64,000 nt of DNA from Vicinamibacterales bacterium (lineage in GTDB: Bacteria > Acidobacteriota > Vicinamibacteria > Vicinamibacterales > 2-12-FULL-66-21), in contig DASSPH010000032.1 in NCBI GenBank assembly GCA_035699745.1, positions 62,001 to 126,000 of the forward strand, given 5' to 3'. Position numbers and translations under genes: made by a program. The notes beneath the pieces are model-generated. The model did no database searches, was not told where the DNA came from, and worked only from the letters and a program-made list of their open reading frames with translations. Position 1 is the stretch's first letter; each line of letters starts with the position of its first letter. This document shows, piece by piece, positions 29,561-54,709 of the stretch.

Positions 29561-32500
29561 ATGGCCAGTCCCACGGAACTGTCCCCGCTCAAGCGGGCGC
29601 TGATCGCGCTCGACGAGATGAAGGGGAAGCTCGATGCGGCCGATCGCGCCCGCAACGAGCCGATCGCCATCGTCGGCATGAGCTGCCGCTTTCCCGGCCG
29701 CAGCCACGGCGCGGAGGCGTTCTGGACGCTGCTGCGCGACGGCGGCGACGCCGTGACGGAGGTCCCGAAGGATCGCTGGAACTGCGACGACTACTACGAT
29801 CCGGATCCGGCGGTGCCCGGCAAGGCCTACGGCCGCTGGGGCGCGTTCCTCGACGGGATCGACCGGTTCGATCCGCAGTTCTTCGGCATCGCGCCGCGCG
29901 AGGCGGCGGGGATCGATCCGCAGCAGCGTCTGCTGCTCGAGACCACGTGGGAAGCGCTGGAAGACGCCGGCACGTCGCCCGAGAAGCTGCAGGGGGTGCC
30001 GGCCGGCGTGTTCGTCGGCATCAACAGCATCGATTACGCGACGCTGCAGCTGCAGAACTGCGACCTCGCGAGCATCGACGCGTATTCGCTGTCGGGCAGC
30101 GCCCACAGCATCGCGGCCGGACGGCTCGCCTACGTGCTCGGTCTGCAGGGACCGGCGATGGCGGTGGACACGGCGTGCTCGTCGTCGCTCGTCGCGATCC
30201 ACCTCGCCTGTCAGAGCCTGCGCAACGACGATTGCCGCGTCGCGGTCGCCGGCGGCGTGCACGTCACGCTGACGCCGATCAACATGGTGGTGTTCTCGAA
30301 GCTGCGCATGCTGGCGGCCGACGGCAGGTGCAAGACCTTCGACGGCCGCGGCGACGGCTTCGTCGAAGGGGAGGGCTGCGCGGTCATCGTCCTCAAGCGG
30401 CTCTCCGACGCCATCGCCGACAAGGACCGGATTCTCGCGCTGGTGCGCGGCTCGGCGATCAACCAGGACGGCGCGAGCAGCGGGCTCACCGCGCCGAACG
30501 GCCCGGCGCAGGAAGCGGTGATCCGGGCGGCGTTGAAGCGCGCCGGCGTCAAGCCGGCCGACGTCGGCTACGTCGAAGCGCACGGGACCGGCACGTCGCT
30601 CGGCGACCCGATCGAAGTGCAGGCGCTCGCCGCCGTTCTCGGCGAGGGGCGCCCGGCGGACCGTCCGCTGCTGATCGGATCGGTGAAGACGAACATCGGC
30701 CATACACAGGCGGCGGCGGGTATTGCCGGTCTGGTGAAGCTGGTCCTGGCGCTGCAGCACCGCCAGATTCCGCCCAACCTGCACTTCGAGAAGCCGAATC
30801 CGTTCATTCCGTGGCCGACGCTCCCTGTCGAAGTCGTCACTTCGCTGCGCCCGTGGGTCGAGAGCGGCGGCCCCCGCGTGGGCGGCGTCAGCTCGTTCGG
30901 CTTCAGCGGCACCAACGTGCACATCGTCGTCGGCGAAGCGCCGGCGCAGGCACCGGTGGAGCGCGGCGCCGACCGTCCGCTGCACCTCGTCACGCTGTCG
31001 GCGCGCAACGACGCCGCGCTCCAGCGCGTGGCCGCGCGGTGGCGCGACCAGCTGGCCGCGTCCACGGGAGCGGGCGGCCTGGACATCCGCGACGTGGCGT
31101 TCACCGCGAACGCCGGCCGCGCGCATCTCAGCGAGCGCGTGGGGCTGATCGCGGGATCGATCGAGGAACTGCGCGGCCAGCTCGATGCGGTTGCCTCCGG
31201 CGAACGCGCGCCGCGCTCCGTCCGCATGCGGGTCGCCAGCGCGGATCGGCCGCGCCTCGCGTTCCTGTTCACGGGACAGGGGGCGCAGTACGCGGGCATG
31301 GGACGCGAGCTGTACGACACGCAGCCGACGTTCCGCGCCGCCATCGATCGCTGCGACGCGATCCTGCGTCCGCTGATGGAACGGCCGCTGATCTCGGTGC
31401 TGTTCCCCGCGGCCGGCGACGAGGCGCTGGTCAATCAGACTGCCTGCACGCAGCCGGCGCTGTTCGCGATCGAGTACGCGCTCGCCGAGCTGTGGCGCTC
31501 GTGGGGCATCGTCCCGGCGGCGGTGATGGGGCACAGCATCGGCGAATACGTCGCGGCGCTGCTCGCCGGCGTCTTCACCCTCGAGGATGCGCTGACGCTG
31601 GTCGCGGCGCGCGGGCGGCTGATGCAGTCGCTGCCCGGCGGCGGCGCCATGGCGGCCGTGTTCGCGAACGAAAACGTGGTCAAGGAGGCGCTCGCCCCGC
31701 ACGGCGGCGTCGCCATCGCCGCCGTCAACGGACCGGACGACACCGTGATCTCCGGTCCGGAGAAGGACGTCGCCGCCGTACTCGCGGCGCTGCAGGCGGC
31801 GGGCGTCTCGTCGGAGCGCCTGACGGTCTCGCACGCGTTCCACTCCGGGCTGATGGATCCGATTCTCGACGAGTTCGAGAAGGCCGCCGCCGGCGTGAAG
31901 TTCAACCCGCCGCGCGTGACGATCGTCTCGAATCTCACCGGTCAGCCGATCCGCGGAGAGATCGCGTCCGCGGCGTACTGGCGCCGGCACCTGCGTGAAG
32001 CGGTGCGGTTCGCCGACGGCGCCCGCGCGCTGTACGACCTCGGCTACCGCGTCTTCCTCGAGCTGGGGCCGCGTCCGACGCTGTCCGGGCTCGCGCGGCG
32101 CAGCGTCGCGGAGGACGCGGTGTTCCTGCCGTCCCTGCGGAAAGCCGGCATGGACTGGGTGCGGATGCTCGAGACGCTGGCGGAGCTGTACGGGCGCGGC
32201 GCCGACATCGACTGGCCGGGCTTCGATCGCGACTACGTCCGCTACAAGCTGCCGATGCCCGCCTACGCCTTCGAGCGCGAACGGCACTGGCTTGCGGGCG
32301 TCAGCGCCGACGGCGCGCGCAAGGGCGGCCAGCCGGGGCGTTCGACGGGACATCCGCTGCTCGGCACGCGCCTCAGCTCCGCGCTGGAGCACGCGCAGTT
32401 CGACGCCGAGATCGGCGTCGACTCGCCGGCGTATCTCACCGACCACCGCAAGCGCGGCGCCGCGGTGTTTCCGGCGACCGCCTATCTCGAGATGGGCCTG

Positions 32501-35500
32501 TCGGCCGCACGCGAAGTGCTCGGCGCCGGCGCGCACGTCTTCGAGGAGCTGGTGATCAGCGATCCGCTCGTGCTCGGCGACGCGCACGTGCGCGTGCAGA
32601 CCGTCCTGACGCCGGCGGGCGACGGCAGCGTGACGTTCCGGCTGTTCAGTCTCGAGCCGGAGAGCGCCGGCCAGGCGGAGCGCTGGCGGCAGCACGGCAT
32701 GGGGACGATCCGCGCCGTGGCGGCCGGCGGTCCCGCGCCCGAGCCGCTCGACGCCGTCAAGGCGCGCTGCACCGAGGCCATCGACGTGGACGGCTATTAC
32801 GCGTCGCTCGTGCCGGACGGCCACGAGTACGGTCCCGCGTTCCGCGGCATTACCGAGATGCGGCGCGGCAACTGGGAAGCGCTGGCGGCGATCGCGCTGC
32901 CGGACGCGATCGCCGGAGAAGCGGGGGCGTATCGCATCCATCCGGTGCTGCTCGACGCCTCGATGCAGCCGCTCGCCGCGGCCGTGCCTGCCGAACTGAA
33001 GGACGCCGCGAAAGGGGAGACCTACCTCCCGGTGAGCCTCGGCCGCGTGCGCGTCCACGTCGACGGCGCGAAGGCGGCATGGAGCCACGTCCGCGTGCGC
33101 GTGCCGTCGGAAGGGGATACCACCGGCTTCTCGGCCGACATCCGCCTCTACGCGGACGACGGCCGCGTGGCCGCCGAGATCGAGGACGTGTACCACAAGC
33201 GCATCTCCGCGGACGCGATGCAGGTCGCGGCGCGCAAGACCATGGCGTCGTGGCTGCACGAAGTGGCGTGGCGTGAGAAGGCGATCGAGACTTCGCCGGC
33301 CGCTGAGACCGGCGCCTGGCTGATCGTCGCGGCAACACAGGCGGGCGCGGAGGCCGCGGCCGCGGCGTTCACCGCGACGGGGAACACGGCGATCACCGCC
33401 GTCGCCGGCTCCGGGTTCAATCCGGACAGCATCGAAGACCTCGACAAGCTGCTGTCGCGGGCGGCGGCGGATGGAGGACTGCACGGCGTCGTTCACATGA
33501 TCGCGGCGGACGGGTCGTCGTCGCCGGCCGCGCCGGCGGAGGGTGTGCGGCGGCACTGCGGCAGCCTGCTGCATCTCACCCAGGCGATCGTCCGCAGCGA
33601 CCGCGAGACGCGGCCGCGGCTGATCGTCGTCACGCGCGGCGCGACGGACGCTGGCGGTGCGGACGTCGCCGTCGACCAGGCGCCGCTCTGGGCGCTCACG
33701 CGCACGGTCGCCGTCGAGCATGCGGACCTGCGCTGCCGTTCGATCGATCTCGATCGTCAGGCGCCGGGCTATGACGACGTCGCCGCGGAAGCGGCGGCAC
33801 CGGGCGCGGACGATCAGATCGCATATCGCGACGGCAAACGGCTGGTCGCCCGTCTCGTGCGCAGCGCCGCCGCCGAGGCGGTGGCGGCCGGTGACGCCGC
33901 CGGTCCGGTCACGCTCGAGATTGGCGCGCGCGGCATGCTCGATCGACTGGAGCTTCGCCCGTGGTCGCGCCGCGAGCCCGGCGAGGGAGAGATCGAGGTC
34001 GAGATTGCCGTCGCCGGCCTGAACTTCCGCGACGTGCTCAACGCGCTCGGCATGTATGAAGGAGAGCCGGGGCCGCTTGGCAGCGAATGCACCGGCACGG
34101 TGGTTCGCGTCGGAGCCGGGGTCACGCACTTCGCCGCCGGCGACGCGGTGCTCGGCATGGCACCGGCGAGCTTCAGCACGTTCGTGACCGCACCGGCGGG
34201 TGCGTTCGTGAAGAAGCCCGAGGCGCTCGCCTTCGACGAGGCGGCGACGATTCCGGTCGCGTTCCTCACCGCGCAGTACTCGCTGATGCACCTCGCGCGG
34301 CTGCGGCGCGGCGAGCGCGTGCTGATTCACGCCGCCGCCGGCGGTGTCGGGCTCGCGGCGGTGCAGGTCGCGCAGCGCGCCGGCGCTGAAATCTTCGCGA
34401 CCGCCGGCAGTCCGGAGAAGCACGCGTATCTGCGATCGCTCGGCGTGAAGCACATCATGAGCTCGCGCACGCTCGACTTCTCCGCGGAGATCCTGCGTCT
34501 CACCGCCGGCGAAGGAGTGCACGTCGTCCTCAATTCGCTGTCGGGGGAATTCGTCGACAAGAGTGTCGCCGCGGTCGCCAAAGGCGGCCGCTTCCTCGAG
34601 ATCGGCAAGGCGGGAATCTGGAGCGAGGAACAGATGGCGGCGGCGCGGCCCGACGTCACGTATTTCCCGATTTATTTCCGCCCGGACGATCACCCGATGG
34701 TGCAGCGGATGTACGCGGACCTGCTGCAGGGATTCGCCGACGGGTCGCTGCGGCCGTTGAACCGACGGGTGTTCGCGTTGACGGCGGCGAGCGATGCCTT
34801 CCGCTTCATGGCGCAGGCGAAACACATCGGCAAGGTCCTCATCGAAGTGTCGCGCGCCGGCGCGCGCGGCGCCGGCGTTCGCGAGGACGCCACATACGTT
34901 ATCAGCGGAGGCCTTGGCGCGCTCGGTCTCGCGGTTGCTGCCCGCCTCGTCGACGACGGCGCGAGGCACCTGGTGCTCGTCGGGCGCGGAGCGCCGACGG
35001 AGTCCGCGGCCGCGGCCATTGGGTCCTTACGACACGCGGGGGCGGAAATAGTCATCGCGCAGGCAGACATCAGTCGCCAAGATGACGTCTCCCGCGTTTT
35101 CGCGGAGGCGCGTGCGGGCATGCCCCCTATCCGCGGCATCGTTCACGCCGCCGGCGTCCTGGACGACGGTCTGCTCGCCAGCCAGTCGTGGGCGCGGTTC
35201 GAGACGGTCCTCGCGCCGAAGCTCGCCGGCGCCTGGAATCTGCACGTGGTGTCGGCGGGACTGCCGCTGGACTTCTTCGTTCTGTTCTCGTCGATGGTCT
35301 CGGTGTTCGGCGGCGCCGGGCAGGGGAATTACGCCGCGGCCAACGGCTTCCTCGACGGCCTGGCGCGGTCGCGCAAGGCGCAGGGGCTGCCGGCCGTCAG
35401 CATCAACTGGGGCCCGTGGGCGGGCGCCGGCATGGCCGGCCGCGTCAGCGAACGGGACCGTCAGCGCTGGCGGGCCGAGGGGTACGGCAGCATCCCGCCG

Positions 35501-36106
35501 TCCGAAGGTGTGTCACTTCTGAGCAGACTGATCCGCCTGGGAGTCGGCCCGGGAATTGCGGTGCTGCCCATCGACTGGCCAACCCTGTTCAAGCAGTTCG
35601 CGGCCGGCAGCGAGCCGCCGATGCTGGCGGAGCTTGCGTCGGCGTACGCCAGACCGGCCTCGGCGCGTCCCGCCGGCCGCCGGCTGGCCGAGGAGCTCGA
35701 CGGGGTCGCGCCGAGCCGGCGCCGCGCGGCGGTTGCCGCGTTCCTGCACGGCGAGGCGCTGAAGGTGCTCGGACTCGCGGCGTCCGTGGAGCTCGATCCG
35801 CGGCAGCCGTTGAGCGAGCTGGGGTTGGATTCGTTGATGGCGGTGGAGCTGCGCAACGCCATCGCGGCGGCGCTCGACCGGACGCTGCCGGCGACGCTGT
35901 TGTTCAAGCATCCGACCCTGGAAGGGCTGTCGGAGTTCGTCATCGCGCAGGTCGGCGGCGAGCCGCCGGCGGCCGCCGCAGCCCCGCCGGCGGACGTGAA
36001 GGACAAGGAGGCGGACGCCGTCCACGATCTCTCGGACGACGCCGCACGGGACCTGCTGGCGAAGGAACTGGCGTCGCTGGAATCGTGGACGGCCGAGGAA
36101 AGGTAG
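29561..36106 (+). CDS. Modular type I PKS, one fully reducing module: KS-AT-DH-ER-KR-ACP
   Basis: A protein of 2181 residues; ATG three bases after the previous stop, with GGAGAG about 11 bases upstream. Domains: N-terminal helix (SPLKRALIALDEMKGKL), KS (Cys 206, EAHGTGT, NIGHTQAAAG), AT (GHSIGE Ser 659, HAFHSGLMDPI, malonyl type), DH (His 962 in HRKRGAAVFP), ER (about 1460-1763, HAAAGGVGLAAVQ), KR (SGGLGALG; LDD motif in VLDDG, so B-type; Tyr 1924 in GNYAAAN), ACP (GLDSL, Ser 2091). All reductive sites look intact, so a saturated unit is expected. A patch in the KR (about 34890-35180) uses less biased codons, including TTA, CGA and ATA close together, unlike its surroundings. The C-terminal tail is LSDDAARDLLAKELASLES. 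This is the last PKS before the tailoring genes. Confidence 0.97.
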   Translation: MASPTELSPLKRALIALDEMKGKLDAADRARNEPIAIVGMSCRFPGRSHGAEAFWTLLRDGGDAVTEVPKDRWNCDDYYDPDPAVPGKAYGRWGAFLDGIDRFDPQFFGIAPREAAGIDPQQRLLLETTWEALEDAGTSPEKLQGVPAGVFVGINSIDYATLQLQNCDLASIDAYSLSGSAHSIAAGRLAYVLGLQGPAMAVDTACSSSLVAIHLACQSLRNDDCRVAVAGGVHVTLTPINMVVFSKLRMLAADGRCKTFDGRGDGFVEGEGCAVIVLKRLSDAIADKDRILALVRGSAINQDGASSGLTAPNGPAQEAVIRAALKRAGVKPADVGYVEAHGTGTSLGDPIEVQALAAVLGEGRPADRPLLIGSVKTNIGHTQAAAGIAGLVKLVLALQHRQIPPNLHFEKPNPFIPWPTLPVEVVTSLRPWVESGGPRVGGVSSFGFSGTNVHIVVGEAPAQAPVERGADRPLHLVTLSARNDAALQRVAARWRDQLAASTGAGGLDIRDVAFTANAGRAHLSERVGLIAGSIEELRGQLDAVASGERAPRSVRMRVASADRPRLAFLFTGQGAQYAGMGRELYDTQPTFRAAIDRCDAILRPLMERPLISVLFPAAGDEALVNQTACTQPALFAIEYALAELWRSWGIVPAAVMGHSIGEYVAALLAGVFTLEDALTLVAARGRLMQSLPGGGAMAAVFANENVVKEALAPHGGVAIAAVNGPDDTVISGPEKDVAAVLAALQAAGVSSERLTVSHAFHSGLMDPILDEFEKAAAGVKFNPPRVTIVSNLTGQPIRGEIASAAYWRRHLREAVRFADGARALYDLGYRVFLELGPRPTLSGLARRSVAEDAVFLPSLRKAGMDWVRMLETLAELYGRGADIDWPGFDRDYVRYKLPMPAYAFERERHWLAGVSADGARKGGQPGRSTGHPLLGTRLSSALEHAQFDAEIGVDSPAYLTDHRKRGAAVFPATAYLEMGLSAAREVLGAGAHVFEELVISDPLVLGDAHVRVQTVLTPAGDGSVTFRLFSLEPESAGQAERWRQHGMGTIRAVAAGGPAPEPLDAVKARCTEAIDVDGYYASLVPDGHEYGPAFRGITEMRRGNWEALAAIALPDAIAGEAGAYRIHPVLLDASMQPLAAAVPAELKDAAKGETYLPVSLGRVRVHVDGAKAAWSHVRVRVPSEGDTTGFSADIRLYADDGRVAAEIEDVYHKRISADAMQVAARKTMASWLHEVAWREKAIETSPAAETGAWLIVAATQAGAEAAAAAFTATGNTAITAVAGSGFNPDSIEDLDKLLSRAAADGGLHGVVHMIAADGSSSPAAPAEGVRRHCGSLLHLTQAIVRSDRETRPRLIVVTRGATDAGGADVAVDQAPLWALTRTVAVEHADLRCRSIDLDRQAPGYDDVAAEAAAPGADDQIAYRDGKRLVARLVRSAAAEAVAAGDAAGPVTLEIGARGMLDRLELRPWSRREPGEGEIEVEIAVAGLNFRDVLNALGMYEGEPGPLGSECTGTVVRVGAGVTHFAAGDAVLGMAPASFSTFVTAPAGAFVKKPEALAFDEAATIPVAFLTAQYSLMHLARLRRGERVLIHAAAGGVGLAAVQVAQRAGAEIFATAGSPEKHAYLRSLGVKHIMSSRTLDFSAEILRLTAGEGVHVVLNSLSGEFVDKSVAAVAKGGRFLEIGKAGIWSEEQMAAARPDVTYFPIYFRPDDHPMVQRMYADLLQGFADGSLRPLNRRVFALTAASDAFRFMAQAKHIGKVLIEVSRAGARGAGVREDATYVISGGLGALGLAVAARLVDDGARHLVLVGRGAPTESAAAAIGSLRHAGAEIVIAQADISRQDDVSRVFAEARAGMPPIRGIVHAAGVLDDGLLASQSWARFETVLAPKLAGAWNLHVVSAGLPLDFFVLFSSMVSVFGGAGQGNYAAANGFLDGLARSRKAQGLPAVSINWGPWAGAGMAGRVSERDRQRWRAEGYGSIPPSEGVSLLSRLIRLGVGPGIAVLPIDWPTLFKQFAAGSEPPMLAELASAYARPASARPAGRRLAEELDGVAPSRRRAAVAAFLHGEALKVLGLAASVELDPRQPLSELGLDSLMAVELRNAIAAALDRTLPATLLFKHPTLEGLSEFVIAQVGGEPPAAAAAPPADVKDKEADAVHDLSDDAARDLLAKELASLESWTAEER

Positions 36107-36119
36107 CGGGCATCGCCTG

Positions 36120-37121
<1,002 letters not shown>

Positions 37122-37140: not shown

Positions 37141-38727
37141 ATGAGAGTCCGACGATTCTCGCGCGCGATCGTGCTCGCGGCGGCCACCGCCGCGCTGATG
37201 ATCGCCATGCGTACCGGCATCCATGGCCAGGCGCAGACGGCCACGCCGAACATCGTCGTCATCATGCTGGACGACATCGAGCTTGCCGGCCTCGGCCAGA
37301 TGCTCAATACGGGCTTCCTGCCGAACATCAAGAAGAACCTGATCGACAAGGGCTACGTCTTCACCGAGTCGTTCTCGGTCGCCTCGCTCGGGGGACCGGC
37401 GCGGGCGTCGTTCTTCACCGGCCAGTATCCGCACAACCACGGCGTGCGGGCGAACTATCCGCCGCTCGGCGGCATCAACAACATGAACCACAATTCCACC
37501 GTCGCCACGTGGCTGCACGACGCCGGCTACCGCACCGGCCTGGTCGGGCGCTACGTCACCGGCTACGGATGGTGGACGTCGGAGTTTCAGCTCTACCCCG
37601 GATGGGACGACTGGAACGCGCTGATCGACCCCAGCAGCATCAGCGTCGACCAGTACCGGATGAACATCAACGGCAGCCTGGTGAACTGGGGACTGCTGGC
37701 CGCCGCCTACAACACGCAGCTCTATCAGACCGACATCGTCGGCTGGCGGGCGCAGAGTTTCATCCAGACCGCGCCGACCTACCAGAAGCCGTTCTTCCTG
37801 CTGGTGGCGCCCACCGTGTTCAACCCGGAGAACCCGCCGTACAACGAGTGTCCGGTGGAGGGGCAGATCTTCGGCGGCAATCTGTGGGGCGCGACGATGC
37901 GTCCGGCCAATCGCCACTGGAACAGCATCGTCAACCTCGGGACCTACTTCCCGCTCCCGACGCCCCCCTCGTTCAACGAGGCGGACGTCAGCGACAAGCC
38001 GGACTGGGTGCAGGCCAATCCGGCGTTGACCGCCGAGGACGTGACCTGCGCCACCCGCCGCCACTGGCGCAAGCTCGAGACGCTGCGCTCGGTGGACGAG
38101 ATGGTCGGCACGATCTTCAGCGCGCTCACCGCGACCGGCGCCCTGAGCAACACCATCGTGGTCCTGACTGCCGACAACGGGTTCATGGACGGGCAGCACC
38201 GCTTTCCGCAGAAGACCCCGGCGTACGAGTCGGCGATTCGCGTGCCGCTGATCATCCGGACGCGCACCAGCTCGACGATGACGCTCGTGCGCGGGATGGC
38301 GCTGACCACCGATCTCGCGCCGACCATCGCGTCGTTCGCCAACGTCACGCCGCCGAGCACGCACCCGGTCGACGGCCGCTCGCTGCTGCCGCTCATCAAC
38401 AATCCGGCGCTGACGCCGTGGCGCGGCATCGGTCTGTTGGAGCACACGCCGGACGGGGAGGAGAATTACGGCCTGGTGGGGCCCCCGTACTATGAGGCGG
38501 TGCGCACCTCTTCCGCCGCGCCGCGCCTGTTCGTCAAGTATCCGACCGTCACCACGGGCGTCCCCGGCGAGTTCTACAACCTCACCACCGATCCGCACGA
38601 GCTGCAGAACAAGTTCACGGATCCGGCGACGCAGACCGAGCGGACGCGCCTCGACCTCTGGTTGAACGCGCTCAAGTCGTGCCGCGGGATCACGTGCTAT
38701 ATCTACGAGACCTATTTCGCTTTCTAG
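37141..38727 (+). CDS. Exported sulfatase-fold protein lacking the formylglycine Cys/Ser (copy 1)
   Basis: A protein of 528 residues; ATG 19 bases after the methyltransferase stop, with GAAAGGGGA upstream. The N-terminus is an arginine-rich stretch plus a hydrophobic segment, consistent with a signal peptide. The body matches the sulfatase branch of the alkaline phosphatase superfamily: metal-binding LDD (about 44-45), an FFTGQYPHNHGV segment, and LTADNG (Asp 345, Asn 346). In active sulfatases the motif is C/S-x-P-x-R, and the first residue becomes formylglycine. Here it reads G-G-P-A-R, with Gly at residue 84. Classical sulfate-ester hydrolysis is therefore doubtful. The C-terminus has a CxxxxC pair shared with the next gene, and other Cys positions also match, suggesting disulfides outside the cytoplasm. 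Its role in this pathway is unknown. Confidence 0.85.
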   Translation: MRVRRFSRAIVLAAATAALMIAMRTGIHGQAQTATPNIVVIMLDDIELAGLGQMLNTGFLPNIKKNLIDKGYVFTESFSVASLGGPARASFFTGQYPHNHGVRANYPPLGGINNMNHNSTVATWLHDAGYRTGLVGRYVTGYGWWTSEFQLYPGWDDWNALIDPSSISVDQYRMNINGSLVNWGLLAAAYNTQLYQTDIVGWRAQSFIQTAPTYQKPFFLLVAPTVFNPENPPYNECPVEGQIFGGNLWGATMRPANRHWNSIVNLGTYFPLPTPPSFNEADVSDKPDWVQANPALTAEDVTCATRRHWRKLETLRSVDEMVGTIFSALTATGALSNTIVVLTADNGFMDGQHRFPQKTPAYESAIRVPLIIRTRTSSTMTLVRGMALTTDLAPTIASFANVTPPSTHPVDGRSLLPLINNPALTPWRGIGLLEHTPDGEENYGLVGPPYYEAVRTSSAAPRLFVKYPTVTTGVPGEFYNLTTDPHELQNKFTDPATQTERTRLDLWLNALKSCRGITCYIYETYFAF

Positions 38728-38735
38728 GGAGTCCG

Positions 38736-40316
38736 ATGAACATTCGCCGTCTTCTCCGCGCCGTCGTCTGTGCCGTCGTTGTCGCGTCCGGTGCACTGTG
38801 GCAGGCGCGCCCCGGTCACTCGCAAACCCGCCCGAACATCGTGGTGATCCTGCTGGACGATTTCGACGCGGAAACCCTGGAGGTTGCGGTCGCGAAGGGG
38901 CTGGCGCCGAACATCGCCCAATACCTTGCGGGCCAGGGCTACACGTTCACCAATGCGTTCACGACGACCACATTCGGCAGTCCCGCGCGCGCAACCTACC
39001 TGACCGGTCAGTACGCGCACAACCACGGCGAATTCGGCACCGACCCGATTCTCGGCGGCGCCCCGCGGTTGAACGAGTCAGCGACGGTTGCGACATGGCT
39101 GAAAACGGCCGGGTATCGCACCGGGCTGGTCGGACGGCATCTCACCGGCTACGGGCTCTTCACGCCGGCAACCCGAATTCCTCCAGGCTGGGATAGTTGG
39201 TCGGCACTCATCGACCCGACGACGTGGAGCATGGACAAATACGTGCTGAACGTCAACGGCACGCTCGTCGATGTCGGCGCCGCCGCGGCCGCCTCCGGAG
39301 TCGAGCTGCATCAGACCGACATCCTCGCCTACCTTGCCGGCACGTTCATCAGGAGCGCGCCCCTGTACCTGCGCCCGTTCTTCCTGACCGTGACCCCGGT
39401 CGTGTTCAACCGCGAGCGGTGGCCGGGCCCGACGATCCACAACGTGTGCCCGAACCCGGCCGACACGGTGTTCGGCGGCAACTACTGGGGCGTGGCACAA
39501 AAGCCCGCAGCGCGGCACATCGACACGGTGACCGGCGACGTGACCGCGTTTCCGCTGCCGAAGCCGCCGTCCTTCAACGAAGAGGACATGTCGGACAAGC
39601 CGCTGTGGGCACAGCAGAACCCGCAGCTTACCGAGACCGACATCGACTGCCTCCAGAAGCGCTACTGGCGCAAGCTCGAGGCCCTGCGCGGCGTCGACGA
39701 TCTCGTCGGCCACGTGATCGGCTCGCTCCAGGCCGCGGGAACCCTCAACAATACGATGGTGATCCTGACCTCGGACGCGGGAGACAACGACGGGCGCCAC
39801 CGGTTCCCCGAGAAGATGCTGGCGTCCGAGCAGGCGCTTCGGGTTCCTCTGTACGTGCGGATGGCCGGAGGCAGCCAGCCCGTCACGATCCCCCGTCTCG
39901 TCCTGGCGACCGACCTCGCGCCGACGATCGTGCACGCCGCGTCGGCGCTGCCGACGATTACCATGGACGGACGATCGCTGCTGCCCCTGATTCAGAACCC
40001 GGCCCTGGCGACCTGGCGCCGGATCGGCCTGATCGAGCATGCGCTGGTGCCTCCGCTCGACACCCCGTTCGCCTCGCCGCCCACGTACCTGGCGGCGCGT
40101 ACCGACGCGGCCGCGCCGCGGATGTTCGTGCGCTATCCGACGGTGACCGCCGGGGTGAACGGCGAGCTGTACGACCTGTCGCTCGATCCCCACCAGATCG
40201 ACAACGTGTTCACCGCTCCCGCCCGTCAGACGGAGGTGGCACGCCTGAACGCCTGGTTGAATGCGTTGCGGACCTGCAAGGGCCTCGTCTGCACGCTGGT
40301 CGAGAATACATATTGA
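38736..40316 (+). CDS. Exported sulfatase-fold protein lacking the formylglycine Cys/Ser (copy 2)
   Basis: A protein of 526 residues. The ATG at 38736 is preferred because AGGGAG lies just upstream and it gives a normal signal peptide (MNIRRLLRAVVCAVVVASGA). A GTG at 38679 would overlap the previous gene by 49 bases. It is a clear tandem paralogue of the preceding protein, matching in LDD (41-42), the LTGQYAHNHG segment, the Cys positions and the terminal CxxxxC. The formylglycine motif reads G-S-P-A-R with Gly at residue 81. The second metal site reads TSDAGD, so the residue after Asp 347 is Ala rather than the usual Asn or His. This copy has thus drifted further from a working sulfatase. 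Substrate binding, a different phosphoryl or sulfuryl chemistry, or a structural role are all possible. Confidence 0.85.
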   Translation: MNIRRLLRAVVCAVVVASGALWQARPGHSQTRPNIVVILLDDFDAETLEVAVAKGLAPNIAQYLAGQGYTFTNAFTTTTFGSPARATYLTGQYAHNHGEFGTDPILGGAPRLNESATVATWLKTAGYRTGLVGRHLTGYGLFTPATRIPPGWDSWSALIDPTTWSMDKYVLNVNGTLVDVGAAAAASGVELHQTDILAYLAGTFIRSAPLYLRPFFLTVTPVVFNRERWPGPTIHNVCPNPADTVFGGNYWGVAQKPAARHIDTVTGDVTAFPLPKPPSFNEEDMSDKPLWAQQNPQLTETDIDCLQKRYWRKLEALRGVDDLVGHVIGSLQAAGTLNNTMVILTSDAGDNDGRHRFPEKMLASEQALRVPLYVRMAGGSQPVTIPRLVLATDLAPTIVHAASALPTITMDGRSLLPLIQNPALATWRRIGLIEHALVPPLDTPFASPPTYLAARTDAAAPRMFVRYPTVTAGVNGELYDLSLDPHQIDNVFTAPARQTEVARLNAWLNALRTCKGLVCTLVENTY

Positions 40317-40332: not shown

Positions 40333-42000
40333 ATGAACGGCGACCGCCCGGTGAAGCCGCCGGCGGACGCCGACAAGCGCGAGGCGCTGGCGCGTCTCCT
40401 CCGGGAGCGCATCGCAGCGCCGCAGGTCGAACATCCGCTCTCGTTCAATCAGCGATCGCTCTGGTTCATGCACCGGCTGGCGCCCGGCAGCGCCGCCTAC
40501 AACGTCGCCTACGCCTTCGTCGTCGAATCGCCGCTCGATGCCGCGGCGCTGCGCGGCGCCTTCGAGCGGTTGACGGCGCGGCACGCGATCCTGCGGACGA
40601 CGTATTCGGCGGCGGCGCCGGTGCAGGTGGTGCATGCCGGACGGCCGCTGGATTTTGCGGAAGTCGACGCGCGCGAATCGGCCGCGGCCGATCTCGACGA
40701 GCGGCTGCGGGCGGAAGCGCAGCGGCCGTTCGATCTCGAGCACGGACCGGTGTTCCGCGTGCGCGTCTTCACGACCGCCGACGCGCCGGTGCTGCTGGTC
40801 ACCTTCCATCACATCGCCTACGACCTCTGGTCGATGGCGACCTTCCTCGCGGAGCTGGGCGCGCTGTACCGCGCGGCTGCCACCGGCGCCGGACCGCTGC
40901 CGCCGCCGGAGACCCAATACGTCGATTTCGTGCGCTGGCAGCACGAACGCCTGGCGGCGGACGGCGAGCGTCTGTGGACCTACTGGCGAGGCGTGCTGTC
41001 CGGCGCGCTGCCGGTGCTCGAGCTGCCGGCGGACCATCCGCGGCCGCCCGTGCAGTCGTTTCACGGCGCGGTGCTGTCGCGCGGCATTCCCGCCGATCTC
41101 GCGGCGCGGCTGCGCGAGCTGGCGCGCGCCGAAGGGGTCACGCTCTTCGTCGTGCTGCTCGCCGCCTATCAGTTGTTCCTGCATCGCGCGTCCGGGCAGC
41201 CGGACGTGCTCGTCGGCACGCCGATGGCCGGCCGCAGCCGCGCCGAGTTCGAGCAGCTGATCGGCTACATGCTCAACTCGCTGCCGCTCCGCGCCGACTT
41301 CGCCGCCGACCCGCCGTTCCGCACCGTCCTGCGCGGCGCGCGCGATCAGGTGCGCGGCGCGCTCGAGCATCAGGACTATCCGGTCGAACTGCTGGTCGAG
41401 CGCCTGCGCCCGGCGCGGAGCGCCAATCAGGCGCCGCTGTTCCAGACCATGTTCGTGCTGAACCAGCCGCATCACGTGCAGGGGGGGATCGATCTGACGG
41501 CTGGCGCCGCCTCCGCCCACGATCTGCGCCTGCGGCGGCTCGATCTCGACCTGCGGATCGCGCAGTTCGACGTCTCGCTCGAAGTCGTGGACCTGGCTGA
41601 GGGCCTGACGTGCAACTGGGAGTACGCGACCGATCTGTTCGACGAGGCGAGGGTGGCGACGTGGGCGCGGCAGCTGGAAGGCGTCCTCGCGGCGATCGTC
41701 GAGGCGCCCGGCGACCGCACCTCCGAGCTGCTCGCGCGGGCCGCGGCGCCGCGCACGCCGTCCGAGGAGGCGGTGGCGGAGATCTTCCGCGAGATGTTCG
41801 GACGGGAGCGGGTCACGCTGGATGACAGCTTCCTGACCGCGGGGGGTGACGCCGACACCGCGCGGCGGATCGCCGGCCGGTTGTCGTCGCTGACCGGGGT
41901 GACGGTGCCGCTGGCGGCCGTCTTCGACGCGCCGACGGTGGCGGGCCTGGCGTCCCTGCTGGAAGACGCCTTGCTGGGGGCGCTCGGCGACGGCGACTAA
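40333..42000 (+). CDS. NRPS condensation domain with degenerate carrier domain (C-PCP*)
   Basis: A protein of 555 residues. The ATG at 40333 lies 16 bases after the previous stop; an in-frame ATG at 40261 would overlap the upstream gene. The N-terminal helix (ADKREALARLLRER) resembles those of the C-domain proteins at 51405 and 62545. The condensation domain has the SFNQRSLWF opening and HHIAYDLWS (His 159-160). The usual Gly after Asp in HHxxxDG is Leu, as in some PKS-associated C domains. The last 80 residues have a carrier-protein shape (SFLTAGGDADTARRI), but the phosphopantetheine site reads GGDA. Residue 507 is Ala (GCC) instead of Ser, so this carrier cannot be charged in the usual way. 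No adenylation domain is present. The protein may act as a non-loading bridge or release/transfer unit between the PKS and NRPS parts. Confidence 0.88.
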   Translation: MNGDRPVKPPADADKREALARLLRERIAAPQVEHPLSFNQRSLWFMHRLAPGSAAYNVAYAFVVESPLDAAALRGAFERLTARHAILRTTYSAAAPVQVVHAGRPLDFAEVDARESAAADLDERLRAEAQRPFDLEHGPVFRVRVFTTADAPVLLVTFHHIAYDLWSMATFLAELGALYRAAATGAGPLPPPETQYVDFVRWQHERLAADGERLWTYWRGVLSGALPVLELPADHPRPPVQSFHGAVLSRGIPADLAARLRELARAEGVTLFVVLLAAYQLFLHRASGQPDVLVGTPMAGRSRAEFEQLIGYMLNSLPLRADFAADPPFRTVLRGARDQVRGALEHQDYPVELLVERLRPARSANQAPLFQTMFVLNQPHHVQGGIDLTAGAASAHDLRLRRLDLDLRIAQFDVSLEVVDLAEGLTCNWEYATDLFDEARVATWARQLEGVLAAIVEAPGDRTSELLARAAAPRTPSEEAVAEIFREMFGRERVTLDDSFLTAGGDADTARRIAGRLSSLTGVTVPLAAVFDAPTVAGLASLLEDALLGALGDGD

Positions 42001-42092: not shown

Positions 42093-42112
42093 TTTCCCCC
42101 GGTTTGCATCCG

Positions 42113-49444
<7,332 letters not shown>

Positions 49445-49514: not shown

Positions 49515-49544
49515 CCGCCGGATCCGGCGCCAATTCCGCCGGAT
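49515..49544 (+). repeat. Direct repeat CCGCCGGAT, 21-base period
   Basis: Two identical nonamers start at 49515 and 49536, a 21-base period that is about two turns of DNA. The first overlaps a perfect 12-base palindrome. The spacing suits a protein that binds one face of the helix, but GC-rich chance repeats are possible. Confidence 0.4.
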
Positions 49545-49560
49545 GTCCACGGATCAGCTC

Positions 49561-49576
49561 AGGCCGCGTGTTTGCA
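49561..49576 (+). promoter_or_regulatory. Candidate sigma-54-like -24/-12 promoter, beta-helix gene
   Basis: AGGCCGC-N4-TTGCA keeps the invariant GG and GC with the right spacing. A start near 49588 would give a leader of about 40 bases that includes the ribosome site at 49612. It is the best -12 match of the three candidates. Confidence 0.45.
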
Positions 49577-49611
49577 CAGTCCCTCAGCCTCGATTGTCAT
49601 CGGAATATTCC

Positions 49612-49617
49612 GGAGGA
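49612..49617 (+). promoter_or_regulatory. Ribosome binding site deciding the ATG at 49627
   Basis: GGAGGA lies nine bases before the ATG. It favours this start over the in-frame codon at 49543, which would add 28 residues ahead of a clear signal peptide. Confidence 0.8.
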
Positions 49618-49626
49618 TTGTTCAAC

Positions 49627-51162
49627 ATGCGACTTGCAGTTCGACTCGTTGCCGCGTGGGTTGCCGCGGTCGGTCTTCTCCCGGCCGTCGCCTCGGCTCA
49701 GAGCGGCGTGACGTTCGTCGTCACCAGCACCGGCGATGGGGCCGACAGCAACACCGGGGACGGCGTCTGCGCGACGGCCGGCAACGGTCCGTGCACCCTG
49801 CGCGCCGCGATCCAGCAGGCCAACGCCGTCGCCGGCACCGACACCATCCACTTCGCGATTGGCACCGGGTTGCAGCGGATCAACGTCGGGTCCGCGCTGC
49901 CGATCATCACCAGCCCGGTGGTGCTCGACGGCACGACGCAGCCGGGGTTCGTCGATCGGCCGCTGATCGAGGTCAACGGCAACGGCGCGCCCGGCGGCAT
50001 CCAGGTGACGGCGGGCAGCTCGACGCTGCGCGGCCTGGCGGTCACCGGATTCAGCGGTGACGGCATCACGCTGAAGACCAAGGGCGGCAACGTCCTGGAG
50101 ATGAACTACGTCGGGCTGAGCGCCGACGGGGACACCGGCACCAACACGGGCCATGGCGTCGTGATGCAGAACTCGCCGAACAACCGCATCGGCGGTCCGG
50201 CGGTCTCGCAGCGCAACGTGATCAGCAACAACAAGGCGAAGGGCGGCGGCGGCGGCATTGTCGTCGACGGCTCGAACGGCGCCGTCATCCAGGGGAACTT
50301 CATCGGCGTCGACGTGACCGGCATGCTGGAGCGTTCGAACGAGGCCCGCGGCATCGCGGTGATCGGGTCGAGCAACCTGCTGATCGGCGGACCGGGCGCC
50401 GGCATGGGGAACCTGATCGCCGGCAACCGCGCCACCGGCGTCCGCATGCTGGGCGGCTCCAGCAACAACATCGTGCAGGGGAACTTCCTCGGCGTGAACC
50501 GCACCGTCACCGACTTCATCGCCAACGATCGCGGCGTGCAGATCCGGGGCGGCAGCGGCCACCAGATTCTCGGCAACGTGATCGCCGGCAACACCTACGA
50601 CGGCGTCCTGATCTGGGAGGACTCGACCGACAACCTGATCCAGGGGAACCTCATCGCGTTCAACGGCCGCGGTCCGATCGGCGATCCGATGGAGGCGGGG
50701 TTCAACGGCGTGTGGATCGCGCAGGGGCTGCGCAACCGCATCGTCTCGAACTCGATCCACTCGAACGGGCTGCGCGGGATCGACCTCGGTACGCCGCAGG
50801 CGATCACGCCGAACGACCTGGGCGACGGCGACTCGGGGCCGAACAATTTCCAGAACTTCCCGGTGTTCACCTCGGTAACCACCGCGGGCGGCGCCACGCG
50901 CCTGGTCGGCACGCTGAACAGCACGGCGAATGGCACGTTCCTCGTGCAGCTCTTCGCCGACACGGTGTGCGATCCGGCGGGCGGACACGGCGAAGGGCGC
51001 TACGCGCTCGGGCAGGTGAACGTGGTGACGAACGGCGCCGGCAACGGCGCCTTCGATGTGGTCCTCCCGTTCACGGTGCCGGTTGGATTCGGGGTTGCGG
51101 CGACCGCGACCGATTCGACCGGCAACACCTCGGAATTCTCGGCCTGCGTAACGGTCAAGTAA
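49627..51162 (+). CDS. Secreted right-handed beta-helix protein with CSLREA-like N-terminal motif
   Basis: A protein of 511 residues. The signal peptide is clear (RLAVRLVAAWVAAVGLLP, then AVASA before the likely cleavage point). Next comes a segment rich in D, G and T containing CTLRAAIQQANA, which resembles the CSLREA motif of surface or secreted proteins. Many short repeats with N-x-I, G-N-x-I and G-V-x-I patterns follow (for example NLIQGN, NIVQGNFLGV, NRIVSNSIHSN), the hallmark of a parallel beta-helix. The C-terminal 110 residues look like a beta-sandwich (TLNSTANGTFLVQLFAD). No catalytic residues of pectate lyases or similar enzymes can be assigned. It sits alone between the PKS and NRPS units with its own candidate promoter and a terminator after it, so an exported or cell-surface role linked to the product is inference. 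Confidence 0.85.
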   Translation: MRLAVRLVAAWVAAVGLLPAVASAQSGVTFVVTSTGDGADSNTGDGVCATAGNGPCTLRAAIQQANAVAGTDTIHFAIGTGLQRINVGSALPIITSPVVLDGTTQPGFVDRPLIEVNGNGAPGGIQVTAGSSTLRGLAVTGFSGDGITLKTKGGNVLEMNYVGLSADGDTGTNTGHGVVMQNSPNNRIGGPAVSQRNVISNNKAKGGGGGIVVDGSNGAVIQGNFIGVDVTGMLERSNEARGIAVIGSSNLLIGGPGAGMGNLIAGNRATGVRMLGGSSNNIVQGNFLGVNRTVTDFIANDRGVQIRGGSGHQILGNVIAGNTYDGVLIWEDSTDNLIQGNLIAFNGRGPIGDPMEAGFNGVWIAQGLRNRIVSNSIHSNGLRGIDLGTPQAITPNDLGDGDSGPNNFQNFPVFTSVTTAGGATRLVGTLNSTANGTFLVQLFADTVCDPAGGHGEGRYALGQVNVVTNGAGNGAFDVVLPFTVPVGFGVAATATDSTGNTSEFSACVTVK

Positions 51163-51404: not shown

Positions 51405-52871
51405 TTGTCGTCTGGCTTGCCGTCTGAAGCGAAGCGAACCCTGCTCGCCCGCCTGCTCTCGGAGCGCGCGGCCGCCGGCGTCCGTGTCTCCGCGCCGGCC
51501 GCCGACCGCCCGTGGACGCTGTCGTTCGGGCAACGGCGCATCTGGTTCGCCGAGCAGCTGTCCCCGGGCACGTGTGCGTACCTGGTCCCGGTCGCGATCC
51601 GGATCCGCGGATCGCTGGATCGGGCGGCGCTCGCGCGCGCGCTGGGCGAGATCGTGGCGCGCCACGACGCGCTTCGGACGACGTTCCCCCTGGTCGACGA
51701 TCGGCCGGTGGCGCAGGTGGCGCCGCCGCGGCCGGTCCCGCTCGCCATCGAAGACATGACCACGGCGGATCCGAGCGCCCGTGAAGAGGCCGTGCGGCGT
51801 GTGTGCCGCGACGAGATCCGCGTGCCGATCGACATCGTCAACGGGCCGATCGTGCGGATGCGCCTCCTGCAGTTGGCCGCGGACGATCACGTGCTGCTCG
51901 TGACCGCGCATCATCTCGTGTGCGACGGCGTGTCGGTCGGCGTGCTCCTGCGGGAAATCGCCGCGGGTTACGACGCCTTCGCCGCCGGCGTGCCGCCGTC
52001 GTTGCCGGCGCTGCCGATGGCCTTCAGTGAGTTCGCGGCGTGGGAAGCGCGGCACGTGGACACGCCGGCCGTCGGCGAACAGCTTCAGTACTGGACGTCG
52101 CGCCTCGCGGGAAGTCCGATTCTCGATCTGCCGGCCGACCGCCTGCGTCCGGCGCACACGAGCCACCGCGGAGCGATCGCCTGGCGCACGCTGAGTCTCG
52201 CGCAGGTGCGCGCGCTGCGCGCGGTCGGCCAGCGCGGCCGCGGCTCGCTGTTCATGGTCCTGCTCGCGGCGTTCAAGACGCTGCTGGCGCGCTACTCCGA
52301 TCAGGAAGACGTGATCGTCGGCTCGCCCGTCGCGGGGCGCTCGAATCCGGCGACCGAACCGCTCATCGGCTGCTTCGTGAATACGCTGGCGCTGCGGACG
52401 GACCTGTCGGGCGACCCGTCGTTTCTCGAGCTGCTGGGCCGCGTGCGCGAGACGGCGCTGAACGCCTACCAGCGCGCGGAAGTGCCGTTCGACAAGGTCG
52501 TCGACACGATGCAGCTCGAGCGCGATCTGACGCGCGCCCCGCTCGTCCAGGTGTTCTTCAACATGGTCAGCCTCGCCGCCGCCCCGCATGCGCTGCGCGG
52601 CCTCTCCGTCCAGATGATCGACGCCGAGGAGGAAGGGGCGAAGTTCGATCTGACCCTCTACGCAATCGAGCGTCCGGACGATCTCCTGCTGCGCATGGTC
52701 TACGCGGCGGACCTGTTCGACGCCGCGACCATCGATCAAATGCTGCAGCGGTACGCCCTGCTGCTCGAGGCGATTGCCGCCGATCCGGCCTGCCGGCTGT
52801 CGGCGCTGCCGCTGGTCAGCGACGTCGAGCAGCTCGGCGAGATTGCGGCTTTCAACGTGGCGCTCGCATGA
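51405..52871 (+). CDS. Stand-alone NRPS condensation domain
   Basis: A protein of 488 residues made of one condensation domain. It opens with a helix SEAKRTLLARLLSER, shared in pattern with the C proteins at 40333 and 62545, then LSFGQRRIWFAEQL (C1-type motif), HHLVCDGVS (His 169-170, complete HHxxxDG), and later YSDQEDVIVGSPVAGR and VPFDKVVD. The protein has no adenylation or carrier domain. It overlaps the next gene by ATGA, and that gene encodes A-PCP, so together the two form a C-A-PCP module split into two proteins. As the first NRPS gene it probably joins the polyketide acyl chain to the first amino acid. It starts with TTG. Confidence 0.9.
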   Translation: MSSGLPSEAKRTLLARLLSERAAAGVRVSAPAADRPWTLSFGQRRIWFAEQLSPGTCAYLVPVAIRIRGSLDRAALARALGEIVARHDALRTTFPLVDDRPVAQVAPPRPVPLAIEDMTTADPSAREEAVRRVCRDEIRVPIDIVNGPIVRMRLLQLAADDHVLLVTAHHLVCDGVSVGVLLREIAAGYDAFAAGVPPSLPALPMAFSEFAAWEARHVDTPAVGEQLQYWTSRLAGSPILDLPADRLRPAHTSHRGAIAWRTLSLAQVRALRAVGQRGRGSLFMVLLAAFKTLLARYSDQEDVIVGSPVAGRSNPATEPLIGCFVNTLALRTDLSGDPSFLELLGRVRETALNAYQRAEVPFDKVVDTMQLERDLTRAPLVQVFFNMVSLAAAPHALRGLSVQMIDAEEEGAKFDLTLYAIERPDDLLLRMVYAADLFDAATIDQMLQRYALLLEAIAADPACRLSALPLVSDVEQLGEIAAFNVALA

Positions 52872-54709
52872 TCGTGACCGAGCGCGCGATCTTCCGGCCG
52901 GTCCACGCGTGGGTCGGCGACGTCGCCGGCCGGCGCGGCGACAGCGTCGCGATCGAGCAGGGCGGCGAGCGCGTGACCTACGCGGAGCTCGATCGGCGCG
53001 CCTGGACCCTGGCCAACGCGCTGCGGGCCGCCGGCCTGCCGCGCCACGGCATGGTCGTCGTGCTGACCGGCACGTCGGCCGACGCGATCGTCGCGATCCT
53101 CGGCGTGCTGCGCGCGGGAGGCATCTTCGTACCGCTCGACCCGCGCTCGCCGCGCCGCCATCTCGACACGCTCGTCGGCGAAGTGGACGCGAAGTACTTC
53201 GTCACCTCGGGCGATGCCGCGTCTCTGGCCGCCGCCATTGCCGGCCCCGATCGCGTCGTCACCGCCGTCGATCGCCTGACGGGGAGCGCCGCCCCGTTCG
53301 ACCTGGCGCGCGATCCGGACGACGCCTGCTACGTGTACTTCACGTCCGGATCGACGGGCCGCCCCAAAGGGATTCTCGGCCGCCTCAAGGCGATCGATCA
53401 GTTCATCCGGTGGGAGATCGACGCGTTCCGCTTCGGCGACGGGCTTCGCGTCAGCCAGTTGATCACGCCGTCGTTCGACGCATTCCTCCGCGACGTGTTC
53501 GTGCCGCTGTGCGCCGGAGGAACGGTCTGCGTCCCTGAGTCGCCGGACCTGAAGCTCGACGCGCCCCGGCTCGCCGCCTGGCTCGATGCGGCGCGCATCA
53601 ATCTGGTGCACTGCGTGCCGTCGCTGTTCCGCACGCTGCTCAACGAGCCGCTGCGGCCCGAACAGTTCGCCGCGCTCACCCACGTGCTGCTCTCCGGGGA
53701 GCCGCTGCTGCCGGCCGACGTGAAGCGCTGGTTCGACGTCTTCGGCCCGCGCGTCCAGCTCGTGAATCTCTACGGACCGTCGGAGACGACGATGGTCAAG
53801 TTCTTCCATCGCGTGCAGCCGGCCGACCAGTCACGGGCCTCGGTGCCGATCGGCCGCCCGATGGCCGGGACCACCGCGATCCTGGTCGATCGGCGCGGGC
53901 GGCCGGTGCCGCGCGGACTCGTCGGCGAGATCTACATCCGCACGCCGTATCGCTCGCTCGGCTATCTCGGCCAGGCGCCGGCCGGCGATCGGTTCGTGCA
54001 GAACCCGTTCGGCAGCGATCCCGCCGACATCGTCTATCGCACCGGCGACCTGGGCCGCGTCCTCGCCGACGGCAGCTTCGAGCTGCGCGGCCGCCGCGAC
54101 CAGCAGGTGAAGATCCGCGGCGAGCGGATCGAGCTCGCCGCGATCGAGAACGTGCTGCGCACCTGTCCGGACGTGCGCGACGTCGCGGTGATCGATCGCG
54201 ACGATGCGGCCGGGACGAAATACCTGTGCGCGTTCGTCGTCGCGCCGCAGACGATCGATGTCGCGGATCTCCGCGCGCGGCTCGCCGCCGAGCTGCCGCC
54301 GAGCATGGTGCCCGGTGTGTTCGTCCGCATGGACCGGCTGCCGCGCACGACCTCCGGGAAGATCGATCGCGCGCAGCTCCCCGCCACTGCGCGCGTCGCC
54401 GCCGACCGCCCCGTGTCCGAGCCGCCGCGAACCGATCTCGAACGGCGGGTGGGCGCGATGTTCGCGGAAGTCCTCGGCGTGCCGGCCGTGGGGGTGCGCG
54501 ACAGCTTCTTCGAGCTGGGCGGCCACTCGCTGCTGGCGACGCAATTGATCTCGCGGGTGCGCGCCGCGTTCCAGGTCGACCTGCCGGTGCGAAGCCTGTT
54601 CGAGGCGCCGACCGTCGCGGGGATCGCGCAGCGCGTCGACATGCTGCAGTGGGCCGCCGCCGCGCCGGTCGCGGACGCCGCGGCGCCGGCGAAGGAATTC
54701 GAGCTGTGA
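52868..54709 (+). CDS. NRPS adenylation-carrier protein (A-PCP)
   Basis: A protein of 613 residues; ATG overlaps the previous TGA (ATGA). Adenylation motifs are in order: YFTSGSTGRPKG (about 158), NLYGPSETTM, YRTGDLG, RRDQQVKIRGERIEL and RTTSGKID. The carrier domain follows with Ser 554 in ELGGHSLLATQ. By hand alignment to the GrsA pocket I read D-A-R-H-L-S-L-M-V-K; I do not recognise this code and leave the substrate open. There is no epimerase. A long open frame upstream (from 52040) is a shadow over the C gene. The next protein begins with a TubC-type docking domain, so this carrier's C-terminus (KEFEL) probably docks there. Confidence 0.93.
   Translation: MIVTERAIFRPVHAWVGDVAGRRGDSVAIEQGGERVTYAELDRRAWTLANALRAAGLPRHGMVVVLTGTSADAIVAILGVLRAGGIFVPLDPRSPRRHLDTLVGEVDAKYFVTSGDAASLAAAIAGPDRVVTAVDRLTGSAAPFDLARDPDDACYVYFTSGSTGRPKGILGRLKAIDQFIRWEIDAFRFGDGLRVSQLITPSFDAFLRDVFVPLCAGGTVCVPESPDLKLDAPRLAAWLDAARINLVHCVPSLFRTLLNEPLRPEQFAALTHVLLSGEPLLPADVKRWFDVFGPRVQLVNLYGPSETTMVKFFHRVQPADQSRASVPIGRPMAGTTAILVDRRGRPVPRGLVGEIYIRTPYRSLGYLGQAPAGDRFVQNPFGSDPADIVYRTGDLGRVLADGSFELRGRRDQQVKIRGERIELAAIENVLRTCPDVRDVAVIDRDDAAGTKYLCAFVVAPQTIDVADLRARLAAELPPSMVPGVFVRMDRLPRTTSGKIDRAQLPATARVAADRPVSEPPRTDLERRVGAMFAEVLGVPAVGVRDSFFELGGHSLLATQLISRVRAAFQVDLPVRSLFEAPTVAGIAQRVDMLQWAAAAPVADAAAPAKEFEL
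54691..54696 (+). promoter_or_regulatory. Ribosome binding site deciding a GTG start
   Basis: GAAGGA lies nine bases before the GTG at 54706, inside the end of the A-PCP gene. It supports coupled translation through the GTGA overlap. Confidence 0.6.

Follow-up and report, generated by a model that had tools for sequence, protein, structure and literature searches.

What role can two adjacent sulfatase-like genes have in a biosynthetic operon when the proteins they specify seem unable to cleave a sulfate ester? The question is raised by a PKS-NRPS cluster in a 6.3 Mb genome of the Vicinamibacterales. The cluster occupies roughly the interval 44–159 kb on a contig of 192 kb, and bases 62001–126000 of that contig form the window, i.e., the whole stretch of 64,000 nucleotides that was analysed. 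A first-pass annotation, made from the DNA sequence, had described the pair as exported proteins of sulfatase fold in which Gly replaces the residue that becomes formylglycine, and had suggested self-protection, export or surface handling of the product as possible roles.

Organisation of the locus

The genes surrounding the pair are as follows (window coordinates).

29561–36106, plus strand: PKS (KS-AT-DH-ER-KR-ACP) upstream of the pair, from domain search
36120–37121, plus strand: methyltransferase of the same operon, ending 19 bp before copy 1, from profile match and spacing
37141–38727, plus strand: pseudo-sulfatase copy 1 (P0001), 528 aa, predicted sulfatase S1 fold, Gly84 (GGPAR)
38736–40316, plus strand: pseudo-sulfatase copy 2 (P0002), Gly82 (GSPAR), 51% identical to copy 1
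40333–42000, plus strand: stand-alone condensation-carrier protein in the operon, 16 bp beyond the end of copy 2, from profile match and spacing
42104–49444, plus strand: PKS with two KS, downstream of the pair, from domain search
49543–51162, plus strand: parallel beta-helix/CSLREA protein with a signal-like N-terminus, from profile matches
54226–62544, plus strand: NRPS with two condensation domains, two adenylation domains, one methyltransferase domain and carrier domains

The open reading frame of copy 2 can begin at 38679 or 38736 (end 40316), and the true ATG is probably at 38736. From the upstream PKS through the condensation protein the genes lie on a single strand and are separated by gaps of 8–19 bp, so they are very probably carried on one transcript, and the pair was correctly placed inside a PKS-NRPS operon by the earlier annotation. 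The condensation-carrier protein (40333–42000) and a further condensation protein (51405–52871) are both stand-alone proteins, apart from the large NRPS genes. Between the downstream PKS and the second of these is the beta-helix/CSLREA protein, the third apparently exported product of the cluster.

Active-site residues

Both proteins match the PF00884 profile (119 bits for copy 1, 104 bits for copy 2, cut-off 25), with positions 1–300/301 covered. The sites that differ from the family are encoded at the following positions.

37390–37392, plus strand: codon of Gly84, the formylglycine position of copy 1, from alignment with relatives
37549–37560, plus strand: codons 137–140 of copy 1, R-Y-V-T against K-Y-L-N in the family (K137R, N140T)
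37819–37824, plus strand: codons 227–228 of copy 1, F-N against P-H in the family, the catalytic His being gone
38976–38978, plus strand: codon of Gly82, the nucleophile site of copy 2, from alignment with relatives
39777–39779, plus strand: codon of Ala349 of copy 2, a metal-site Asn in the family, from alignment with relatives

The motif reads SLGGPAR in copy 1 and TFGSPAR in copy 2, against SLCCPSR in the family. In an alignment of 67 rows, the two copies included, 64 of the 65 relatives carry Cys at the formylglycine position, the sole exception being a protein of a Halioglobus MAG (L091). The rows L078 and L109, flagged in this alignment, are artefacts of cut-off long frames. GGPAR and GSPAR align without gaps to the C-x-P-S-R of these 64 relatives, and in an alignment to the solved structure of BT4656 (5g2v) the Gly of both copies falls on the nucleophile Ser. 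The Gly substitution of the first-pass annotation is confirmed by this, and a misaligned nucleophile can be ruled out, as there is no gap at the site across the 67 sequences or against 5g2v. The Ser of GSPAR was also considered as a nucleophile and rejected, since it occupies the x position of the motif, where copy 1 has Gly.

The loss extends well beyond the nucleophile. The annotation had recognised the Gly but missed four further substitutions common to both copies, K137R, N140T, P227F and H228N (copy 1 numbering), at positions where K, N, P and H are found in 63–64 of 65 relatives. The catalytic pair K137 and H228, which is K and H in 64/65 relatives, is R and N in both copies. Retained by both are D44, D45, P86, R88, H98, N99, D345 and K358, and the LDD and GQYxHNHG segments are present in both, as described earlier. 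The Ala noted next to a metal Asp in copy 2 is likewise seen in the alignment, where D-A stands against D-N in the family (N in 62/65 relatives). By the alignment, copy 1 thus has all of the metal ligands D, D, D, N, while copy 2 has Ala in place of the N. Here the named residues are presumed to be catalytic or metal-binding from established knowledge of the sulfatase family.

Judged by sequence, neither copy would be an active formylglycine sulfatase, either by [CS]-x-P-x-R, the motif by which active members are defined (PMC5066984), or by the Lys and His. That these are ordinary working sulfatases with a misaligned motif, as a normal fold and a largely normal motif region might suggest, is barely credible given an ungapped alignment, a site lacking Cys and Ser in either copy and the loss of further catalytic residues. 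The four metal-ligand positions that copy 1 retains apart from the nucleophile would fit a different metal-dependent reaction in which no covalent nucleophile takes part, for instance water-mediated hydrolysis of the product or transfer of a group on it. This is unlikely, because the active-site Lys, Asn and His have also gone and copy 2 lacks one metal ligand. FGE-like proteins are encoded in the genome and its other sulfatases keep the Cys, so the absence of Cys from the pair is not forced by the lack of an activating enzyme, and that cause is ruled out.

Predicted structure and export signals

AlphaFold2 models built on the alignment of relatives returned the expected sulfatase fold with high confidence (pLDDT 93.4 for copy 1 and 91.3 for copy 2). 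The best structural matches are carbohydrate sulfatases: 6hr5 (S1_25; Z 40.7 and 40.9, rmsd 2.2 and 2.0 over ~370 residues, for copies 1 and 2, respectively), 5g2v (Z 38.4 and 37.7) and 7p24 (S1_11). On these confident models, both copies have the alkaline-phosphatase-like sulfatase fold. Signal-peptide-like stretches are found at both N-termini.

37141–37230, plus strand: signal-peptide-like N-terminal stretch of copy 1, from sequence
38736–38822, plus strand: signal-peptide-like N-terminal stretch of copy 2, from sequence

Residues 5–25 of copy 1 are modelled as a helix with low confidence. From the shape of the N-terminus, both copies are apparently exported.

Origin and constraint

The two copies are 50–51% identical and are sisters in the tree (support 100), the next branch being L055, from an acidobacterium, whose motif is intact. 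As sister copies sharing the same substitutions, they point, by parsimony, to a single inactivation that preceded the duplication, and independent loss in each copy is ruled out. It follows that loss in both paralogues, from which the first-pass annotation had argued for a selected state, counts as one event and is a weak argument. Elsewhere in the tree, a sulfatase from a genome of the same phylum (L034) pairs tightly with one from a named Acidobacteria MAG (L097), also with support 100, from which the phylum is probably Acidobacteriota.

The annotation's conclusion that the proteins are selected and not decaying stands on other grounds. At a threshold of at least 85% of relatives, 89 columns count as conserved. 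Both copies depart from nine of these, among which are the nucleophile and the catalytic Lys and His, and the other 80 survive in one copy or both. Of the 80 columns left in the ancestor, copy 1 retains 76 and copy 2 retains 75. In the conserved columns the copies have an identity of 0.888 to each other, in the remainder 0.42. Among 386 pairs of relatives with 45–57% identity, the mean for conserved columns is 0.942 (s.d. 0.037, 5th percentile 0.876), so that the copy pair falls within the normal range, close to its lower limit. Nei-Gojobori estimates are 0.49 for non-synonymous and 0.96 for synonymous divergence, the latter near saturation and GC-biased. Since the duplication the conserved scaffold has been retained to much the same degree as in active pairs of comparable divergence, which makes decay unlikely, and the sequences look selected. 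Catalysis is indeed gone, and more has been lost in copy 2, as might be expected of remnants of a sulfatase that formerly acted on the product. Such an origin is nevertheless very improbable given full-length frames, a GC3 of 0.86–0.93 (high, as in the neighbouring genes), the excess of synonymous over non-synonymous change, and conserved columns retained within the range of active pairs.

A sulfotransferase in the cluster

Outside the window the same cluster carries a sulfotransferase gene.

Contig 47429–48394 (L139:7429–8394), 14.6 kb before the window: sulfotransferase, from Pfam matches

It directly precedes the first PKS gene and follows genes for an acyltransferase, a phosphopantetheinyl transferase and a type II thioesterase. 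The product scores 62 and 50 bits against Pfam sulfotransferase families, above both cut-offs, and is related to a sulfotransferase of solved structure, 3rnl (E 5e-45). A search of the genome with two sulfotransferase families gave one other match, at 177 kb on the contig (129 kb away), among polysaccharide-type genes. A sulfotransferase with 50% identity is encoded on contig 17 of a genome of the same order (G438, L151), together with thioesterase and phosphopantetheinyl transferase genes beside PKS genes. No sulfatase was found on that contig, so sulfotransferase and sulfatase do not always occur together, and the enzyme of the present cluster may act on some other substrate.

Proposed function

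A sulfotransferase in the same cluster as two apparently exported, non-cleaving proteins of sulfatase fold suggests recognition without cleavage. We therefore propose, with a probability of about 0.4, that the pair are non-catalytic periplasmic binders of an exported, sulfated polyketide-peptide. One S1-family sulfatase would have lost catalysis and then duplicated within the PKS-NRPS cluster. The cluster sulfotransferase would add sulfate to the product, and the metal Asp residues, R88 and K358, with the new R137, would form the remaining pocket for an anionic group. With neither formylglycine nor acid/base residues the ester would stay intact, and the bound product would be held, shuttled or masked during its exit. 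Export, sulfation of the product and its binding are each inferred. Among the roles suggested earlier, handling of a sulfated product is the most economical, given the cluster sulfotransferase.

The proposal draws on precedents in the superfamily, where removal of the nucleophile leaves or strengthens ligand binding (PMC3699461; 6pt6, 6ptk). In alkaline phosphatase the S102G change tightens phosphate binding by orders of magnitude (PMC3699461), and an inactive Cys-to-Ser sulfatase mutant was crystallised with its substrate bound (6pt6). These mutants, like the pair, have lost the nucleophile within the same superfamily, but they were made in the laboratory (the sulfatase mutants being Cys-to-Ser/Ala) and their other catalytic residues are intact. 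The phosphatase precedent is also not identical in chemistry, an anionic alkoxide being removed there and a formylglycine diol here.

In active sulfatases the His contacts sulfate. With H228 and N140 gone, and one metal ligand missing from copy 2, sulfate binding at the site may have been lost, and these losses may mean that the ligand has changed or that the pair serve as a scaffold. Such a scaffold, structural or regulatory and comparable to periplasmic pseudo-hydrolases, might be a heterodimer in contact with an export or tailoring enzyme, the old site being left unused. It would agree with a site that has diverged differently between the copies (the metal Asn lost in copy 2) inside a shell that was kept. 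A precedent exists in YejM/PbgA (LapC), a regulator of sulfatase-like fold in Gram-negative bacteria (PMC7773988). We consider a scaffold rather unlikely, there being no obvious need for it to keep the metal Asp residues, R88, H98, N99 and K358 in both copies. YejM/PbgA shares with the pair a sulfatase-like fold in the periplasm but is membrane-anchored, and the NCBIfam YejM model gives 24 and 22 bits for the two copies against a cut-off of 825.

The position in the cluster and the export-like N-termini would also suit immunity proteins that capture the product in its toxic form in the periplasm. This reading, distinctly unlikely as there is neither a resistance signature nor a known product, overlaps with the binding model. 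As regards that binding model, a more specific version is that the cluster pairs its sulfotransferase with duplicated dead sulfatases that act as periplasmic receptors, a natural substrate trap derived from a hydrolase. We advance it as a doubtful possibility. Little work has been done on dead sulfatases that have a function, and it is unusual for a natural-product cluster to encode binding proteins that descend from hydrolases. Should the pair bind a sulfated product, they would be a case, open to experiment, of an enzyme that has become a receptor, and would give access to the export or masking of a large sulfated polyketide-peptide. The 'sulfatase' label on a cluster gene can mislead about its activity.

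Relatives and comparison with known systems

The pair share with the formylglycine sulfatases (SulfAtlas S1, PF00884) the fold (Z about 37–41), the LDD metal site, P-x-R and the HNHG region, and differ in the Gly that stands for Cys/Ser, the replaced Lys and His, and the location in a PKS-NRPS operon. The closest relatives found, at 42–43% identity, are L055 from a named Acidobacteria and L023 from the class of the window's genome. Both have the family's pair of C-terminal Cys residues, as do the two copies, but unlike these they have intact CCPSR, K, N and PH. On the stretches examined around L055 and L023 there were no PKS/NRPS genes, and beside the relatives as a whole the only matches, to KS, A or MT, were weak ones at L061, L089 and L133.

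Single-protein scans of genome_contigs and viral_contigs returned no closer or Gly-type relative. An alignment scan, which used two seed patterns and may miss relatives, gave none above 43% identity among the best 80 of 276 matches. Whole-genome searches of the family, class and phylum sample found no closer relative, two further classes of the phylum gave no match at a strict threshold (a result of little weight), and phage and plasmid collections gave distant sulfatases only. No homologous cluster carrying the pair was found in the collections searched, and the novelty claim is accordingly limited to one genome. The open-access literature yielded no account of paired dead sulfatases within a PKS-NRPS cluster, and predicted-inactive members of the sulfatase family have already been noted in surveys (PMC5066984). 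What appears to be new is a duplicated, constrained dead pair in a PKS-NRPS operon whose cluster also has a sulfotransferase.

This type of nucleophile loss is not unique to the pair, since the Halioglobus protein (L091:9332–11584, 750 aa) shows the same kind of change, with Gly at the nucleophile (GTPSR) and altered His and Lys sites. Its loss is independent, as it is sister to an active-type protein of Myxococcota, and no PKS/NRPS genes adjoin it. Another variant of the motif is common to five Actinomadura relatives (L099, L100, L116, L120 and L132), which have CCTSR, the motif Pro being replaced by Thr.
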